Shown here: in pieces, positions 4,988 through 49,029 of the stretch
Layout of the letters: the number at the start of each line of letters is the position of its first letter
Position numbering within the stretch: position 1 is the first letter of the stretch
DNA from: Seleniivibrio woodruffii
Lineage (GTDB): Bacteria; Chrysiogenota; Deferribacteres; Deferribacterales; Geovibrionaceae
Assembly (NCBI RefSeq): GCF_004339245.1
Contig: NZ_SMGG01000003.1
Span: forward strand, 1,054,770-1,118,769
Length of the DNA stretch: 64,000 nt
Direction of reading: 5' to 3'
Notes under the pieces: model-generated
Told to the model about the DNA's origin: nothing
Database searches by the model: none
What the model saw: the letters and a program-made list of their open reading frames with translations, nothing else
Position numbers and translations under genes: made by a program

Positions 4988-7615
4988 ATGACAGGTCACG
5001 AGATACGCAGGAAGTTTCTGGAATATTTCAAGCAGCACGGACACGTTGTGGTAGGTTCATCCTCCCTTGTGCCTGCAGACGACCCCACGCTGCTTTTTAC
5101 AAATGCGGGAATGAACCAGTTCAAGGATACGTTCCTCGGCAGAGAGACCAGAAGCTACACCAGAGCCGCCACATGCCAGAAGGTTGTCAGAGCGGGCGGA
5201 AAACACAACGACCTTGAGAACGTGGGCGTTACATCACGTCACCACACATTTTTCGAAATGCTCGGAAACTTCTCCTTCGGCGATTACTTCAAAGTTGACG
5301 CTATAAAATTCGGCTGGGAATTCCTCACCAAAGAGATGGGACTGCCCGCCGACAAAATGTTCGTATCCGTATATAATGACGACGACGAGGCGTTCGCCAT
5401 CTGGCGTGACGTGATCGGCCTGGACGAGAAAGACATAGAGCGCAGAGGAGAGAAGGACAACTTCTGGGCGATGGGCGACACAGGCCCCTGCGGCCCCTGC
5501 TCTGAGATTCATATAGATCAGGGCGAGGGTACAGGCTGCGGACGTCCCGAATGCGACCGCAACTGTGACTGCGACAGACACCTTGAGCTGTGGAACCTTG
5601 TTTTCATGCAGTTCGAACGTTCGGCTGACGGCACACTGACACCCCTTCCCAAACCCAGCATCGACACCGGAATGGGGCTGGAGCGTGTTACATCGGTTGT
5701 TCAGAAGGTAACCAGCAACTACGAGACCGACCTTTTCAAACCCATCCTTAACTATATATCCGAGCTTGCCGGACACAAATACGGTTCCGACCCCAAAAAG
5801 GACATCTCCGTCAGGGTTATAGCCGACCACAGCCGTTCGACCACCTTCCTTGTGGGTGACGGCGTTCTGCCTTCAAACGAGGGCAGGGGCTACGTCCTAC
5901 GCCGTATCATGCGCCGTGCAATGCGCCACGGAAAGATGCTCGGATTCGAGGGAGCTTTCTTCCATAAGGTGTGCGAGTTTGTAGTGGATTTCATGAAAGG
6001 TCACTACGTTGAGCTTGCTGACAAGAAACCCTTTATCTCCAAAGTGGTTACAAACGAGGAGCAGTCTTTCAGCAGAACGCTGGGCATCGGACTTAAGATA
6101 ATAGACGAACTCCTTGAAAAGCATAAAGAATACAAGGTGATAAGCGGAGAGGACATCTTCCGTCTGTACGATACCTACGGATTCCCTGTCGACCTTCTGA
6201 CAGATATTGCAGAGGATGCGGGCTACGGGCTTGACACAGTGGGATTCGAGCAGGAGATGCAGGCTCAGCAGGAGCGTGCGAAAAAGTCATGGGCGGGCAG
6301 CGGCGAGAGCAGGGTTGCCGACATCTACATCCAGCTTGCCAGCAGACTCTCCACAGAGTTCACAGGATACGACAGCCTGAAAGAGGTCACCACTGTTGCC
6401 GCCATCATTAAGGACGGCGCAGAGGTCAGCAAGGCCGAAGGCGAGTGCGACATAGTGCTTGCGAAATCCCCCTTCTATCCCGAAGGCGGCGGCCAGACAG
6501 GCGACTGCGGATATATCAAGACAGAATCCGCAGTGTTTAAGGTTACTAAAGCGTCCAAGTACGGCGACGGCATGATAACCATGCACGGAGTTGCGGAGCT
6601 TGGCACAATCATAAAGGGCGAAACCGTCACTGCAGAGGTGGACAGAGCCGCCAGAAAAGCAACGGAGAAGAACCACACAGCGACCCACCTTCTGCACAAG
6701 GCATTGCAGGAAGTTCTGGGCGACCACGTCCGTCAGGCGGGTTCAATGGTCACCCCCGACAGACTCCGTTTCGACTTCAACCACTACGCACCAGTTTCTC
6801 AGGATGAGATGGAGCGCATAGAGGAGACGGTCAACTCCGTCATTCAGGAGAACACAGAGGTTTCCAAAACATACATGAGCAGAGACGAGGCGGTTCAGGC
6901 CGGAGCAATGGCGCTTTTCGGCGAGAAATACGGCGAGAGGGTGCGTGTTGTCAGCGTTGAGAATTTCAGCCTTGAGCTTTGCGGCGGATGCCACGTTTCA
7001 AGAACGGGCGACATCGGCTTTTTTAAACTGGTGAGCGAGGCCTCGGTTGCCTCCGGAGTGCGCAGGATAGAGGCTGTGACAGGGATGAACGCCGTTGCAT
7101 ATGCCCAGAAGGCCGACAGCACGGTGAAGGATGCTGCCAGACTGCTGAAAGCGTCTCCCGACAATGTTATTAGCAGAATCGAAGAGACCGCAGAGGCTCT
7201 GAAAGAGCGTGAGCGTGAGCTTAAGAGACTCGGCGACAGGATAGCTTCCAGCCAGTCCGAAGGACTTCTGGACAGTGCTATCGAGGTTAAAGGGGTCAAG
7301 CTCCTTGCTGTGACACTTGAAAACGCAGACACTGAAGCTCTCAGAAAATTTGTGGACACCGCACGTGACCGCATGCAGAGCGGTGTTGTTGTTGTGGGTT
7401 CCGTTAACGACGGAAAGGTCATGTTCGCATGCGGAGTGACAAAAGACACAATGGGCAGGGTCAAGGCCGGCGACGTTGTGCGTGAGGTTGCAAAAATTGC
7501 CGAAGGCTCCGGCGGCGGCAGACCCGACATGGCAATGGCAGGCGGAAAGAACCCCGAAAAACTGGGCGAAGCCGTTGCGGCAGTGCCCTCGATCGTGGAA
7601 AAGCTGATTGGCTGA
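4988..7615 (+). CDS. alaS: Alanyl-tRNA synthetase
   Basis: Attaches alanine to tRNA-Ala and hydrolyses mischarged Ser- and Gly-tRNA. At 875 residues it is full length. The order is N-terminal class II catalytic domain (TSRHHTFFEMLGNFSFGDYF near residues 80-100), tRNA-binding middle, editing domain with zinc ligands HTATH (about 563-567) and CGGCH (about 664-668), and C-Ala domain ending in GGGRPDMAMAGG. Insertion CGRPECDRNCDCD in the catalytic domain is Cys-rich. The ATG is one base after the HNH stop codon. The downstream Nudix gene overlaps its end by 8 nt. Confidence 0.98.
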   Translation: MTGHEIRRKFLEYFKQHGHVVVGSSSLVPADDPTLLFTNAGMNQFKDTFLGRETRSYTRAATCQKVVRAGGKHNDLENVGVTSRHHTFFEMLGNFSFGDYFKVDAIKFGWEFLTKEMGLPADKMFVSVYNDDDEAFAIWRDVIGLDEKDIERRGEKDNFWAMGDTGPCGPCSEIHIDQGEGTGCGRPECDRNCDCDRHLELWNLVFMQFERSADGTLTPLPKPSIDTGMGLERVTSVVQKVTSNYETDLFKPILNYISELAGHKYGSDPKKDISVRVIADHSRSTTFLVGDGVLPSNEGRGYVLRRIMRRAMRHGKMLGFEGAFFHKVCEFVVDFMKGHYVELADKKPFISKVVTNEEQSFSRTLGIGLKIIDELLEKHKEYKVISGEDIFRLYDTYGFPVDLLTDIAEDAGYGLDTVGFEQEMQAQQERAKKSWAGSGESRVADIYIQLASRLSTEFTGYDSLKEVTTVAAIIKDGAEVSKAEGECDIVLAKSPFYPEGGGQTGDCGYIKTESAVFKVTKASKYGDGMITMHGVAELGTIIKGETVTAEVDRAARKATEKNHTATHLLHKALQEVLGDHVRQAGSMVTPDRLRFDFNHYAPVSQDEMERIEETVNSVIQENTEVSKTYMSRDEAVQAGAMALFGEKYGERVRVVSVENFSLELCGGCHVSRTGDIGFFKLVSEASVASGVRRIEAVTGMNAVAYAQKADSTVKDAARLLKASPDNVISRIEETAEALKERERELKRLGDRIASSQSEGLLDSAIEVKGVKLLAVTLENADTEALRKFVDTARDRMQSGVVVVGSVNDGKVMFACGVTKDTMGRVKAGDVVREVAKIAEGSGGGRPDMAMAGGKNPEKLGEAVAAVPSIVEKLIG

Positions 7616-14790: not shown

Positions 14791-17427
14791 ATGAACTTAT
14801 CCGACCTCATCCCCGTCAGACGGGAAGGCCTGCTGGACACTGTCCGTGAGGCTCTGGAATCCGATATCTCCGAAACCTACCGTATATTCAGCATATACGG
14901 CCACAAAGGAACGGGCAGAACAGTTTTCGCCGATTTTCTGAGAAAAGAGCTGAGCAAAGACTCATACCTTGTCATGTACATGGATGCGGAAAAAGCCTGC
15001 TCGTGCTATCCTGAGCAGGGGCTTATAGAGCTTCGGGACTGCGTTTCCGGCGAAACGGCGGACTATTTCGCACTGTATGACATCTCCGTTCTGGTTCGCA
15101 GCGAAAAGATAAACGGAAAGCTGAAGACCGAGTCCGAGTGCTATTTCAGAAACAATTCCCCCATGATGAGCGAGGTTATATCAAAATCCCCTTCAAAATA
15201 CACCTTCACCAGAAGCATGTACGACGAAGTGGGCAAGTCCTTTTCCGAAGAGTGGTTCAACAGGGAAGTCCGCCCGCAGATAATCAGAATGTTCAAAGAA
15301 CCCAACCATATGAACTGGCAGATCTGTATGGACAGCTTTGCGGCGTGCCTTGCCGCCGTAAAAAATACTGCGAACCTCGAACCCGTTCTGATAATCGACA
15401 ACGCTGAAAACCTTTTCGATGCCTATGACCACGGCGTAAGCTGGGTCACAAAACTGGCTGAAAAGGCCGGATGCTCAACTCTGATATATATTTCAGAAGA
15501 TCAGATATCGTCTGATAAATACGGCTACGTCTCCACTGAGATAAACATAGACACTCTGTCCAAGTCAGAATGCGCCGCTTTCTGCCGCAAAAACGGACTG
15601 GAAAGGGATTCCATGGCGGAGCTGATATTCGAGAACACCGATGGGCATCCCGCTCTGACGGCGTTCAGCCTTGAGACCTATAAACTGGTTAAGAGCAATG
15701 AGGGGCACGAACCCGGCCCCGAAGTTTTCGAAAGCAACCCCCAGAGCATAGTCCACATGAGCCTGAGCAGTCTGAAAAGCACGGAATCCATCATGGCGAA
15801 GCTTTTAAGCTGCTGCCGTGTGTTTGATGAAGGGCTTTTCAAAGCGGTTGCACAGGAGTTCACAGGCACAAAGGACGCTTCGGAACTGTTCCAGAGCCTG
15901 GTCTCACGCAGTTTCATAACCGATATGGGTGCAGGCTTCTTCTGCGTTCATCCCCTTTACAGGATGCACAGCCACTCTGTTCTGGATTCCGACCTGCTGG
16001 AGAACGTAAACTACGCAATCTACCGCTACCACATAGGTTCGGCAGAGGCGGCATGCGACTATAAGGAACTGACATATCACATAAAAGAATCTGTGCACCA
16101 CGCCATGCACATAATGGAGATAGAGGGCTTTGTCGAATGGTTCTCAACACTGGAGAAAAAGTTCTACACTGTTGAGTTCTTCAACTTCTGGCTGGATATG
16201 CTGGATGCGGCAAAAAGCCACATAGCGGGCATTCTGGGCGAGACTCATCCCCAGATTGCTTCATATTTCGATAAACTGGCGTTCATGTATCTGAAATCAG
16301 GCCGTCAGGTCTCCGCCGAAAAGGTACTCCACGAAAGACTGGAGGCCGAAGAGGCGAAGTCCGGCAAGAACTCTTCGGATGCAGTTCCCTTCATGAACAA
16401 ACTTGCCAACTTCTACATAGACACGGGGGATTTCTCCGCCGCCGAAGCCATCATGAAAAAAGGGATGGAGATTCGGGAGCAGTTCCACGGCAAGAAGAGC
16501 GCAGACTATGCAGACAGCGTTCTGAAGCTGGGTAAGCTCTACCACATGGCGGGCGACAGAGAGGGTGCAATTCAGATGCTCGGCGAGGCCGAAGAGATCT
16601 ATAACAAAGCTCTGGATGTTAAGGACACTGCAAGGCTTGAGGCGGACGAGGTCATGGCCTCGATATACAGCGCCGCAGGGCAGATAGCAAAGGCCGCACT
16701 CATCTATCACAAGCTCACCACTGTGCGCAATGAGACCATGGGTCCCATGAGCAAAGAGGCCGTTAAAAGTCTCGGCGACTATGCAAAGGTGGTGTTTAAG
16801 AACGGAAACAGCCGTAAGGCCGTAAAACTGTACGAAGACCTGATAACCAAAACAAAAAAGATATACGGCGACAACAGCCGCATGACAGCCGCCGCCGCAA
16901 ACGACCTTGCCGTGGCATATCAGCGGGTTCAGGAGTTTGAAAAATCAGAGAGCATGCATAATGAGGCTCTGAACATCAAGCAGAACATATACGGCACCAA
17001 CCACCCAAGCACAGCAGTTTCATGCACCAACTTCGGTCAGCTGAAATATGCCATGGGTGATTTGAAAAATGCCGAGCCTTACTATTTCAAAGCGTTGCAG
17101 ATATACGAGACCGTGTTCGGCGACCGCCACGAAAAAACAGCCGTGGGGCTTAACAACATGGGTTTCATAACCTCACGCATGGGGCAGTTCGAACGTGCGC
17201 AGGAGTACTATGAAAAGGCTCTGGACATCAAAAAGGAGATAGGGGGCGAAAGGAGCATCTCCGCCGCCGCCGCAATGAACAACCTCGGCGAACTTCTTTT
17301 CAGAATCGGCAAGAAGGACGAGGCGAGGGAATTTCTCACCACAGCCCACGATATTTATAAAGAGATATACGGCGAGGAGCATGAGTATACTAAGCTGGTA
17401 GCCAAGAACCTGGCCGCCGTGAGTTAG
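14791..17427 (+). CDS. STAND-like P-loop protein with C-terminal TPR repeats
   Basis: An 878-residue soluble protein. The N-terminal third resembles a STAND/AAA-type NTPase: P-loop IYGHKGTGRT (residues 35-44), Walker-B-like LIIDNAEN (about 201-208) and a GxP-like DGHPALTAF (about 284-292), a motif of NB-ARC/STAND proteins. The usual P-loop lysine is arginine (R43), so ATP hydrolysis is uncertain. From about residue 490 to the end there are roughly nine 42-residue TPRs of the kinesin-light-chain type, with recurring A..L..LG.LY...G and IYG..H..TA. No effector domain (nuclease, TIR, protease) is visible. The start is 6 nt after the M16 gene, so it is probably co-translated. Function unknown; a signalling or scaffold role is inferred. 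Confidence 0.75.
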   Translation: MNLSDLIPVRREGLLDTVREALESDISETYRIFSIYGHKGTGRTVFADFLRKELSKDSYLVMYMDAEKACSCYPEQGLIELRDCVSGETADYFALYDISVLVRSEKINGKLKTESECYFRNNSPMMSEVISKSPSKYTFTRSMYDEVGKSFSEEWFNREVRPQIIRMFKEPNHMNWQICMDSFAACLAAVKNTANLEPVLIIDNAENLFDAYDHGVSWVTKLAEKAGCSTLIYISEDQISSDKYGYVSTEINIDTLSKSECAAFCRKNGLERDSMAELIFENTDGHPALTAFSLETYKLVKSNEGHEPGPEVFESNPQSIVHMSLSSLKSTESIMAKLLSCCRVFDEGLFKAVAQEFTGTKDASELFQSLVSRSFITDMGAGFFCVHPLYRMHSHSVLDSDLLENVNYAIYRYHIGSAEAACDYKELTYHIKESVHHAMHIMEIEGFVEWFSTLEKKFYTVEFFNFWLDMLDAAKSHIAGILGETHPQIASYFDKLAFMYLKSGRQVSAEKVLHERLEAEEAKSGKNSSDAVPFMNKLANFYIDTGDFSAAEAIMKKGMEIREQFHGKKSADYADSVLKLGKLYHMAGDREGAIQMLGEAEEIYNKALDVKDTARLEADEVMASIYSAAGQIAKAALIYHKLTTVRNETMGPMSKEAVKSLGDYAKVVFKNGNSRKAVKLYEDLITKTKKIYGDNSRMTAAAANDLAVAYQRVQEFEKSESMHNEALNIKQNIYGTNHPSTAVSCTNFGQLKYAMGDLKNAEPYYFKALQIYETVFGDRHEKTAVGLNNMGFITSRMGQFERAQEYYEKALDIKKEIGGERSISAAAAMNNLGELLFRIGKKDEAREFLTTAHDIYKEIYGEEHEYTKLVAKNLAAVS

Positions 17428-17428
17428 G

Positions 17429-17548
17429 TTGCCGTTTATATACGTCGCATTACTGCGTCAGTTTTTTTCGGAACTGCTCACATACTGCAACGTATGCTCG
17501 CAGCCCTCTCAAAAAGCCTTCCTTGTACTGCTCGTGTCTTAACAGCAA
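17429..17548 (+). repeat. 120-nt covarying hairpin element, copy A
   Basis: Begins one base after the TPR gene stop. Basal stem TTGC..GTT..ATACG pairs with CGTGT..AAC.GCAA; then GCATTAC with GTACTGC (one fixed mismatch), an asymmetric loop (TGCGTCAG opposite CCTT), then upper stems TTTTT/AAAAA, CTGC/GCAG and CATAC/GTATG. It belongs to the same family as 30514-30633, 38023-38143 and 48621-48740. Confidence 0.8.
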
Positions 17549-28890: not shown

Positions 28891-29718
28891 ATGAAAAAAA
28901 TAGCATGTTTCATCAATGATAGCAACCTCTTGGAAAAGGTCACAGAATTTTGCGGTCTTGAGAGGTTTCAGGAGGAGTGCATCGGCGATCCATCGCAGTT
29001 CGTCTATGACGTTGCGACAGTGCTTTATCTGACGGATGACCCCGCAGCCCTTTATCCGGAAGGCATAAAAGATATCAGAGTCTGCTATGTCGGAAAGGAC
29101 AGGCCGAAAGACTGCGGAGTGTTTTTTCTTCCCGAAGATTTTCAGATGATCCATCTCAGGCTTCTGATAGATGCCGTTATCCATAACGGCTCTTTCGAAT
29201 CCAGTCTGGCCGCCGTTACTCCTGTTTTTCTCAACAAATCATTCAAAATCAAAAACGACATCTTCAACGTTGAGCGCATTGTTTATGCCCTTACGAAAGA
29301 TTTCGTGTTCTTCCTGAATTTTCAGTCTCTGGAAAAGGTCAGGGTCGGTCTTGCGGAGATGCTTACAAACGCAATCGAACACGGAAACCTCGGCATTACA
29401 GGCGAAGAGAAGATGAGTGCCACCGAATCCGGCACCTATTACGAACTGGTCAACTCCAGACTGAACGATGCCGTGTGTATGGCAAAGTATGCTGTTTTTA
29501 AGTTCTACGTTGATGCCGACGGTCTGGAAATGAGTCTGGAGGACGAAGGCGAGGGGTTCGATGTGGACAGCCTGCCCGATCCCACAGATCCCGAAAGTCT
29601 TCTAAAACTCCACGGACGGGGCATTCTTATCACCAGGATGTATTTCGACGAAGTAAAATATAACGATAAAGGTAATCACGTTACCCTTAGAAAGAGGTTC
29701 GGATGCTCTACCTGCTAG
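28891..29718 (+). CDS. HATPase-domain regulator (RsbW-like) with receiver-like N-terminus
   Basis: 275 residues from the ATG at 28891. The C-terminal half is a GHKL/HATPase_c_2 fold: N box EMLTNAIEHGNLGIT (about 157-171), G1 DEGEGFD (about 217-223) and G2 GRGILITRM (about 242-250), as in anti-sigma kinases of the RsbW/SpoIIAB group. The first 110 residues alternate hydrophobic strands (KIACFIND, VATVLYLTDDP, IRVCYVGK, GVFFLP) in a pattern like a degenerate receiver domain. This is my inference from the pattern only. No sigma or anti-anti-sigma gene is adjacent. The downstream hydrolase gene overlaps it by 16 nt. Confidence 0.75.
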   Translation: MKKIACFINDSNLLEKVTEFCGLERFQEECIGDPSQFVYDVATVLYLTDDPAALYPEGIKDIRVCYVGKDRPKDCGVFFLPEDFQMIHLRLLIDAVIHNGSFESSLAAVTPVFLNKSFKIKNDIFNVERIVYALTKDFVFFLNFQSLEKVRVGLAEMLTNAIEHGNLGITGEEKMSATESGTYYELVNSRLNDAVCMAKYAVFKFYVDADGLEMSLEDEGEGFDVDSLPDPTDPESLLKLHGRGILITRMYFDEVKYNDKGNHVTLRKRFGCSTC

Positions 29719-30512
29719 GCACAAGGGGTACTCTGCCCGTTTCGGGGCAGAAATTCGTTAAATACGGCGGAAACACCACCTGCCTGATGGCACCCATCGA
29801 TGAACGCTCATGCCTCATCTTCGATGGCGGCACAGGGCTTATGAGCCTTAATAAATATAACAATTTTGAAGAATTTCATATATTTCTTTCCCACCTCCAC
29901 TGGGATCATATTGTGGGGATGCCTATATTTCAGGCGTTCTATCATGCGGGAAAAAAGATAAACATCTATCTGGAAAACAAGGAGACACTGCACTCAACCG
30001 ATATTCTGGACGTGCTGTTCAATCCGCCTTTTTTTCCGGTGCCCAAAACCAAGCTGAGAGCTGAGATAAAGCTGAACCTCATCGAGGGCGGCGACCAGTT
30101 CTGCTTCGGCGATATCTGCGTACATTCGGCGGAGGGCAACCATCCCGACGGCGTTCTTATGTACAAAATAGTGTTCCCCGATAAAAAGATACTCTACACA
30201 TCCGACTACGAACACGGCACACCCGTTGACGACTTCCTCATAGAGTTTGCCTACGGCTGCGACTACCTCATTTACGACACAACCTACTATCCCGACGAAT
30301 ATGCGGGCGGCAACGGCGCTATGAGCAAAGTGGGCTGGGGTCACTCAACATTTCAGCAGGGGATTGAGTTCGTTAAAAAGGCTAAGGTCAAAAACCTCGT
30401 TCTGGCACATCACAATCCGGATTATGACGACATCATGCTGGATGAGATGCATATTCTGGCGAGGAGGCTGTTCAGTAATACCTATGTTGCATACGACGGA
30501 ATGATCCTATAG
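29703..30512 (+). CDS. Metallo-beta-lactamase-fold hydrolase
   Basis: 269-residue protein with the diagnostic HxHxDH (SHLHWDH; H64, H66, D68, H69), later metal ligands in GNHPDG, YTSDYEHG and LAHHNPDY, and the early glycine loop LGTRGTLPVSG. It resembles the PhnP/RNase Z-like branch, which includes phosphodiesterases and RNA processing enzymes; the substrate is unclear. The 16-nt overlap with the HATPase regulator gene means coupled translation and suggests that the hydrolase acts in the same signalling process. No signal peptide. The 120-nt hairpin copy B begins one base after its stop. Confidence 0.8.
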   Translation: MLYLLGTRGTLPVSGQKFVKYGGNTTCLMAPIDERSCLIFDGGTGLMSLNKYNNFEEFHIFLSHLHWDHIVGMPIFQAFYHAGKKINIYLENKETLHSTDILDVLFNPPFFPVPKTKLRAEIKLNLIEGGDQFCFGDICVHSAEGNHPDGVLMYKIVFPDKKILYTSDYEHGTPVDDFLIEFAYGCDYLIYDTTYYPDEYAGGNGAMSKVGWGHSTFQQGIEFVKKAKVKNLVLAHHNPDYDDIMLDEMHILARRLFSNTYVAYDGMIL

Positions 30513-30513
30513 C

Positions 30514-30633
30514 TTAGTGCTTATATGCATCGCTCTACGGCGTCAGATATCGCTCACTCGCAACACGTACAGAGTACGTACGCTTTTGCTCGTCTCACTC
30601 ATCTTCCTTGTATAGCTTGCATCTAAACACTAA
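30514..30633 (+). repeat. 120-nt covarying hairpin element, copy B
   Basis: Begins one base after the hydrolase stop. TTAGTG.TTA.ATGCA pairs with TGCAT.TAA.CACTAA; the next stem is GCTCTAC/GTATAGC (same central mismatch as in copy A but A-T changed to T-A), then the GGCGTCAG internal loop, GCAA/TTGC, and tip ACGTAC-aga-GTACGT. Confidence 0.8.
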
Positions 30634-30649
30634 CAGAGAAGAACAATTC

Positions 30650-30683
30650 CCGTCACTGCGAGCGTAGCGAAGCAGTCTTCCAA
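30650..30683. repeat. REP-like family 3, half copy
   Basis: Begins GTCACTGCGAGCGTAGCGAA and ends in the GCAGTCTTCC block shared with the other family 3 copies. Confidence 0.55.
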
Positions 30684-30717
30684 GTTAGCAAATGAGGGCA
30701 TTGCCACTTCTATTCGG

Positions 30718-37537: not shown

Positions 37538-37538
<1 letters not shown>

Positions 37539-37963
37539 TGGCAGAGACTGTCAGGCTTGAACTTGTTACTCCGGTGAGACAAATTCTCTCCGAGGATGTA
37601 GACGAAGTGATAGCACCCGGCGTAGAGGGCGACCTTGGTGTTCTGCCCGACCACGCACCTCTCCTTACCGCTTTGAGAGTAGGAGAGCTTGCCTACAGAA
37701 TTAAAGGCAAACTCGAATACGTTGCGATAGTCGGCGGCGGATTCCTTGAAGTGAACAACAACAGGGTAATCGTTCTTGCCGATGATGCCGAGCTTGGTCA
37801 CGAAATCGACCTTGAGCAGGCTGTTCAGCGAAAACTTAAAGCAGAAGCGGCTCTTGAGCGTGAGCGTAAAGCTGACGAGAAAACATTCAAGACTGTGGAG
37901 ATAGAGCTTATGAAAGAGCTCATCAGAGTGCAGATCGCTGAGAAGTACAAAGGAGCCAAGTAA
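37538..37963 (+). CDS. atpC: ATP synthase subunit epsilon
   Basis: 141 residues: N-terminal beta sandwich (GDLGVLPDHAPLLTALRVGEL) and C-terminal two-helix part that can inhibit hydrolysis. Last gene of the cluster, followed by a terminator at 37990. The membrane subunits a and c are not in this cluster and must be elsewhere. Confidence 0.96.
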
Positions 37964-38022: not shown

Positions 38023-38143
38023 TTAGCATTTATATGCTTCGCATTACGGCGTCAGCTTTTTAATATCTCGGGTCATGTACTTCTGTGTACACTCCCCTTC
38101 GAAATTAAAAACCTTCCTTGTACTGCTTGCATCTAAATGCTAA
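38023..38143 (+). repeat. 120-nt covarying hairpin element, copy C
   Basis: TTAGCATTTATATGC pairs with GCATCTAAATGCTAA (one mismatch); then GCATTAC/GTACTGC, internal loop with GGCGTCAG, TTTTTAAT/ATTAAAAA, GGG/CCC and tip GTAC-ttctgt-GTAC. It starts just past the atp terminator. Confidence 0.85.
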
Positions 38144-47918: not shown

Positions 47919-48545
47919 ATGAAAAAACTGTTCATCATTTTCTTAGGAGTAATGTTTATCATGGCAGGAAAAGCAAAGGCTGACACACCCGTCAAAGCAA
48001 AAGAGGCGAAACCCAAAACCGCCACAGAGGCAAAGGCAGAAAAGCCGAAAGCACCCGCAAAACCCAAAGCGGCAAAGGCTCCTCAGGTGGTTTTCGAGAC
48101 CACACAGGGCAAAATAGTTTTCAAACTCTTCCCCAAGGAAGCTCCGAAAACTGTTGAGAACTTCGTCGGTCTGGTTAATAAAGGCTACTACAACGGTGTG
48201 ATTTTCCACCGTATCATCAAAGATTTCATGATTCAGGGCGGCGACCCCACAGGCACAGGCCGTGGCGGAGAGTCGATCTGGGGCACCAGATTTCAGGATG
48301 AATTCAGCCAGCTCATCTTCAACAAAAAAGGCCTTCTGGCTATGGCGAACGCAGGCCCCAACACAAACGGCAGCCAGTTCTTCATAACAACAGTGCCCAC
48401 TCCCTGGCTGGACAACCGCCACACAATCTTCGGCGAAGTTGTTGAGGGATATGATGTTGTTCAGAAACTGGAGAACGTCAGAACCGGATACGGCGACAGA
48501 CCCGTTGAAGAGCAGAAGATCATCAAGGCTACTGTTCTGAAGTAA
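47919..48545 (+). CDS. Exported cyclophilin-type peptidyl-prolyl isomerase
   Basis: 208 residues. A Sec signal peptide (about 1-22) is followed by a Lys/Ala/Pro-rich linker (about 23-64) and a complete cyclophilin domain: [35 protein letters not shown], and NTNGSQFFI. It probably folds periplasmic proteins. It directly abuts livF with no gap, so it is transcribed with the amino-acid transporter; a chaperone role for LivK is possible but only inferred. Followed by a terminator. Confidence 0.92.
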
Positions 48546-48620: not shown

Positions 48621-48740
48621 TTGGCGGCTGTATGCGTCGCATTACTGCGTCAGTTTTCAATTTCTCGGGTCATGTACATCAGTGTACACTCCCCTTCGAA
48701 ATCGAAAGCCTTCCTTGTCCTGCTCGCATCTACCCACCAA
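48621..48740 (+). repeat. 120-nt covarying hairpin element, copy D
   Basis: TTGGcGG..TATGCG pairs with CGCATCTA.CCACCAA; GCATTAC/GTCCTGC, TTTTCaATTTC/GAAATCGAAAG, GGG/CCC and tip GTAC-atcagt-GTAC. Begins right after the terminator T run. Confidence 0.85.
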
Positions 48741-48761
48741 GTTTAAGACGGCTCTTCTCCC

Positions 48762-49029
48762 GTCTCTGCGAGAAGCACAGCGACGAAGCAGTCTACCACA
48801 TTAAGCGGAGCTGAATCATTTGGCTGTCCGGATGTGGAAGTTCACTTCACCCCTGCGGGGTTCGTGAAGACGAGTGTGCGTCTCTGCGAGGAACAGCGTG
48901 ACGAAGCAGTCTTCCACATTAAGCGGAGATAAATCATTTAGCTGTCTGGATGTGGAAGTTCACTTCACCCCTGCGGGGTTCGTGAAGACGACTGTTGGTC
49001 TCTGCGAGGAACTGAGCGACGAAGCAGTC
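48762..49029. repeat. 118-bp tandem repeat built from REP family 3
   Basis: Two full units (48762-48879 and 48880-48997) plus the first 32 bp of a third. Each starts GTCTCTGCGAG and contains GACGAAGCAGTCT and the hairpin CTTCACcCCtgcGGGGttcGTGAAG. Copies differ at only a few positions. ORFs predicted here follow the repeat and lack ribosome sites, so I treat them as non-coding. Confidence 0.8.

Follow-up and report, generated by a model that had tools for sequence, protein, structure and literature searches.

Palindromic ERIC-like repeats outside Pseudomonadota stand behind genes and are oriented with replication

Why do four elements of about 120 nt in one stretch of DNA each lie 3' of a plus-strand gene and point in the direction of that gene? 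The stretch, 64 kb long and called the window here (C3:1054770-1118769), belongs to a genome of 11 contigs and 2.9 Mb (G000); an Rfam scan of the 64-kb window gave no match, and its four copies, A to D, were located by alignment (Table 1). A sequence-only reading had described this arrangement, with A and B starting one base past a stop codon and C and D starting past a terminator, i.e., a hairpin followed by a T-run, and the description is borne out in the window. An intrinsic terminator also lies 23 nt beyond the end of copy A. The same reading took a loop motif to be conserved, which holds for three of the copies: CCTTCCTT occurs literally in A, C, and D only, copy B carries TCTTCCTT instead, and other subtypes elsewhere in the genome have CCGCCTTG in place of CCTTCCTT. 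By its interior, copy B is of subtype 1 (GCGTCAG / CGCAACAC..), and both C and D are of subtype 3. The suggested link to the anti-Shine-Dalgarno fails because the CCTTCCTT motif varies between subtypes and is not conserved across them. Please note that four of four window copies on one strand is weak evidence alone, because the window sits in one replication arm, in which the plus strand carries 65% of the coding sequence.

Table 1. Copies of the element in the window and the genes immediately 5' of them (positions counted from the first letter of the window).
Feature	Position	Strand	Description
Gene 5' of copy A	14791-17427	+	TPR repeats
Copy A	17429-17548	+	One base past the TAG (17425-17427) of a TPR-repeat protein gene
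Gene 5' of copy B	29703-30512	+	PF12706, metallo-beta-lactamase fold
Copy B	30514-30633	+	One base past the TAG of a metallo-beta-lactamase-fold protein gene
Gene 5' of copy C	37538-37963	+	PF02823, ATP synthase epsilon chain
Copy C	38023-38143	+	59 nt past the stop of the ATP synthase epsilon chain gene, directly behind that gene's terminator
Gene 5' of copy D	47919-48545	+	PF00160, cyclophilin
Copy D	48621-48740	+	Directly behind the terminator 3' of the cyclophilin gene

A covariance model made from 22 copies (R1) found 52 copies in the genome, 50 of them with E<1e-6; all 52 are intergenic, and the element is ~120 bp long with a single long stem. Three relatives in the genus (G001, G003, and G004) hold about 40-50 copies each, the sister species (G002) holds only 2, and a broader model (R2) found copies in 5 of the 20 genera of the host phylum. 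This phylum accounts for only 51 of the 97,973 genomes in the collection, and the host therefore lies outside Pseudomonadota. The sites A-D are empty in the sister species; in the three relatives the corresponding positions are occupied, in some cases by an element of another interior subtype, by tandem elements, or by a remnant, and the outer stem at site C is site-specific and kept between species. Given this occupancy and the kept outer stem, the copies are old, inherited insertions in which interior exchange, duplication, or repeated insertion followed. At G000:C5:83717-84084, G003:C13:90856-91214, and G004:C16:29965-30430, 2-4 elements follow one another head to tail, repeating every ~118-124 bp. 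At site D of G001 (locus L161, near 6440-6640), an element apparently sits inside a broken element, itself interrupted, i.e., the copies are nested or chimeric there. Two copies (G000:C4:733134 and G000:C6:304871) stand behind identical contig-end sequence that resembles the end of an rRNA operon.

The selected structure is the long imperfect hairpin of the bottom strand, which is antisense to the gene upstream. Its outer nine base pairs vary between copies yet pair, with 379 of 441 being Watson-Crick compared with 247 (sd 8) when the arms are swapped between copies, and the inner arms behave in the same way in this arm-swap test. In an alignment of 51 copies, two-sided changes are found in 26 of the 30 pairs of the bottom-strand hairpin, 93.3% of the cells are paired, and the bottom-strand covariation is 0.637, compared with 0.204 after shuffling and 0.10-0.15 after sliding. 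The non-Watson-Crick pairs of the top strand are more often A.C than G.U in each of three helix classes (32:12, 23:1, and 100:47, giving 155 A.C vs 60 G.U over the three), and these A.C mismatches are therefore G.U pairs on the bottom strand. The latter is the more stable strand in 94 of 94 copies with DNA parameters and in 93 of 94 with RNA parameters, and a G.U pair at the base of its apical stem is invariant (50 of 51 copies). The top strand nonetheless folds more stably than its shuffled versions (mean z -4.3). For copy B, the sense strand alone folds no better than shuffles (z -0.6), and a no-structure reading of that value is overturned by the covariation together with the bottom-strand fold.

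The hairpin was compared with ERIC, whose consensus was confirmed in E. coli (5396 of 5426 genomes), with 80 ERIC loci of Enterobacterales as the comparison set. Model R1 placed ERICs first among nine loci, at weak E-values (best 0.005). Model R2, built from the new elements only with no ERIC included, matches ERIC on the expected strand in 12 of 12 enterobacterial loci, with E-values between 7e-5 and 0.11 for 11 of them and a partial match at E=2 for the twelfth (L211); a single additional hit with E<1 (L239:290-414) is possibly another copy of ERIC. A structure-preserving decoy model (R3), built on a reduced set of that alignment in which each pair of columns was swapped as a unit, did not match ERIC in the tested loci; having 22 pairs vs 30, it is a good but not a perfect control. 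Sequence-only profiles (nhmmer in both directions) gave no significant match at the elements between the family and ERIC, and the pairwise score of the family against ERIC exceeds that of structure-preserving shuffles only to a modest degree (mean z 1.47 vs 0.35 on the wrong strand). As judged from these models, the family is a mobile palindromic element of ERIC-like type outside Pseudomonadota.

Genes were called with a dicodon model on ~1.2 Mb, i.e., the stretches around the copies and spaced samples. The gaps that hold copies are tandem in 25 cases, convergent in 22, and divergent in 1 (48 copies), compared with 264, 56, and 107, respectively, among all gaps >60 bp. Genome-wide, the upstream gene is in the same sense in 44 of the 50 copies for which it is known; the consistent orientation that the sequence-only reading had claimed from the window was thereby confirmed by a genome-wide tabulation, and a random orientation was not what we found. 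The distances are two-peaked, with none at 7-22 nt past the stop: the stop-codon class has 17 same-sense copies (a gap of -3 in one and 0-5 nt in 16), and the terminator class has 22 copies, which begin -2 to +9 nt from the end of the T-run. Copies persist at gene 3' boundaries, either directly past the stop codon or past the terminator T-run. A second repeat family (CGTCACTGCGAG..CGAAGCAGTCT and GTCATTCTGA..) is found <=70 nt downstream of the element in 25 of the 52 copies, never upstream and always in one orientation (in the window at 30643-30690 and 48757-48800); it resembles a partner linked to the element or a landing zone that the two share. A GroEL-like C-terminus with GGM repeats is encoded directly 5' of the element at L187 (G009) and directly 5' of ERIC at L268 and L271 (Enterobacter and Citrobacter), i.e., in different phyla.

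Replication is a stronger orientation rule than gene strand. Of the 52 copies, 49 are on the strand indicated by GC skew, vs 717 of 1129 genes (64%; p=3e-7). Together, the three copy-rich relatives have 37 of 39 copies on the GC-skew strand and the upstream gene in the same sense in 35 of 39. Related copies, here as in the structural counts, are not independent of one another, and their common ancestry inflates the nominal significance. Skew domains were taken as replication arms; dnaA (C3:102884) lies away from the skew switch (near C3:255-270 kb), and the replication-arm step therefore rests on GC skew. One stretch with a strong negative skew and 39% GC (G000:C7:100000-119999) is likely a foreign island. 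The direction of replication is partly confounded with gene sense, 64% of genes being on the leading strand, and gene orientation as the sole cause was rejected, 42 of the 44 same-sense copies being on leading-strand genes vs 64% of all genes. Another intergenic repeat in this genome, unrelated to the element (CGTCACTGCGA / GTCACTCTGA) and counted away from the elements, served as the control: it has the same sense as the upstream gene in ratios of 32:12 and 44:13 (76:25 in all) and shows no replication bias, 23:21 and 31:26 (54:47 in all; Fisher p=7e-8 vs the element). Orientation with replication is therefore particular to the element, and the gene sense, being shared by the control, is partly general for repeats behind genes; a general property of intergenic repeats was rejected as the explanation of the former, not of the latter.

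Starting from what was directly observed (copy number, sites, orientation, covariation, strand asymmetry, and similarity to ERIC), our preferred explanation, to which we assign a probability of about 0.5, is that these are ERIC-like mobile repeats of which the bottom-strand hairpin is selected, and that copies persist where the strong folder is kept off the mRNA and off the lagging-strand template. If it lay on the lagging-strand template or in mRNA, a strong hairpin would be costly or deleted, insertions of the opposite orientation would be lost, and a polar insertion reaction would possibly contribute. We infer that loss or selection, not insertion chemistry, sets the orientation. ERIC has the same strand asymmetry, yet on two Pectobacterium chromosomes its copies are not clearly biased with respect to replication (24/40 and 16/40, taking the record start as the origin), and a purely retention-based account must therefore differ between hosts; among the 80 loci, ERIC also shows no same-sense preference toward the upstream gene. 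Retention alone does not account for the exact abutment to stop codons. That nearly every copy stands behind a gene and points with the fork suggests that the survival of such hairpins at a site depends on replication in addition to transcription. In the open literature consulted (PMC10969869 among the sources), ERIC is reported from Gammaproteobacteria only, and a recognisably ERIC-like family in another phylum shows that this architecture either is far more ancient or has jumped between distant lineages. The family also provides a first set of copies with an orientation that follows the replication fork, indicates the bottom strand as the structurally selected one in both families, and makes two points testable, namely, which strand constitutes the form that moves or functions and whether palindromic repeats are filtered by replication.

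The main rival, which we consider possible but doubtful, is polar insertion into the single-stranded lagging-strand template (the gene's coding strand in the leading arm), guided by the terminator hairpin and T-run or by stop-codon-adjacent ends. Polar single-strand insertion of this kind is known for EN-less and class IIC group II introns and for IS200/IS605 elements, and it would fit the 22 copies that begin at a T-run as well as the leading-strand orientation of 49 of 52, a pattern that is the same in four species. However, no Y1 transposase (IS200/IS605, RAYT) was found in G000, G001, G003, and G004, and no reverse transcriptase domain (RVT_1) was found in G001, G003, and G004, each with its 40-50 copies; the only such domain of G000 lies at C7 74836-75444, on the same contig as the 39% GC stretch. 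The 17 stop-codon copies have no preceding terminator, the best-folding strand would be on the wrong template for IS605-type joining, and ERIC is without orientation bias, all of which speak against polar insertion.

The sequence-only reading had offered another cause for the orientation, i.e., a sense element of the mRNA 3' end, retained because its transcript would protect, destabilise, or capture the mRNA of the upstream gene; the orientation is real, while this cause of it seems unlikely. It would agree with the same sense in 44 of 50 copies, the 17 copies at stop codons, the top-strand fold being better than shuffles (mean z -4.3), and the orientation-dependent alteration of transcript levels by ERIC located 3' of Yersinia genes (PMC2229807; PMC10969869). 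Yet at least 22 copies lie past a terminator T-run, where little sense transcript is expected, the conserved folder is the antisense strand and the sense strand is the weaker one, and the sites are empty in the sister species; moreover, the replication strand is the tighter predictor, and its 42/44 bias in same-sense copies is not predicted by an mRNA role. A sense-mRNA role may apply to single stop-codon copies, as is reported of Yersinia ERIC, though it would not explain the family as a whole. It is more improbable still that a bottom-strand RNA is the functional or mobile form (an antisense or free small RNA, or an RNA transposition intermediate) and that the orientation is a by-product: the G.U-rich covarying fold with its invariant G.U pair at the apical stem base (50/51) would suit such an RNA, but folding of single-stranded DNA would give the same signal, and nothing obvious transcribes the bottom strand at non-convergent sites. 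Spread from mRNA 3' ends at co-directional transcription-replication encounters, in which both insertion classes would mark RNA 3' ends of genes co-directional with the fork (either the terminator U-run or an end set by a ribosome or nuclease at the stop codon), is very improbable, and we know of no description of repeat insertion in this manner.

Among other known systems, REP/BIME and CGTC-tagged palindromes are similar to the element in being dispersed intergenic palindromes in gene 3' regions; however, the element is ~120 bp, REPs are put at 20-40 bp (PMC3733652), and no RAYT/Y1 gene was found in the copy-rich genomes. Group IIC introns are similar in that the start of the element is directly past the T-run and in the sense of the transcript, but the element is 120 bp, is without an intron-encoded protein, and has no Rfam match in the window. 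The attC sites of sedentary chromosomal integrons are likewise strand-asymmetric palindromes just past stop codons, and attC bottom strands in large chromosomal integrons have the same arrangement, with the folding strand on the leading-strand template (PMC5371416); in contrast, the elements here are dispersed and single, without cassettes, and no attC core boxes were seen by eye.

ERIC (IRU, RU-1), a family of Enterobacteriaceae and Vibrionaceae according to a review (PMC10969869), is also one long imperfect intergenic hairpin present in multiple copies (~127 bp vs ~120 bp here). Both have the apical block GAGY-NTAC..GTAN-RTGA, closed by a G.U pair, and an identical order of the internal-loop blocks AAGGMRG / AACGC or GACGC; in 79 of 79 ERIC copies it is likewise the bottom strand that folds better, and abutment to the stop codon is usual where the upstream gene of ERIC is same-sense. 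Stop-codon abutment and bottom-strand folding are common to both families; replication orientation is not. The ends are TATA..TATA in ERIC, which also has a TA target duplication, whereas here they are TTRG..CYAA, variable and covarying between sites; inspection by eye of the 52 copies showed no constant duplication in the flanks, and the host of the new family is in another phylum, not in Enterobacteriaceae or Vibrionaceae. Because the ends, the target duplication, and the host range differ, we call the family ERIC-like rather than ERIC.
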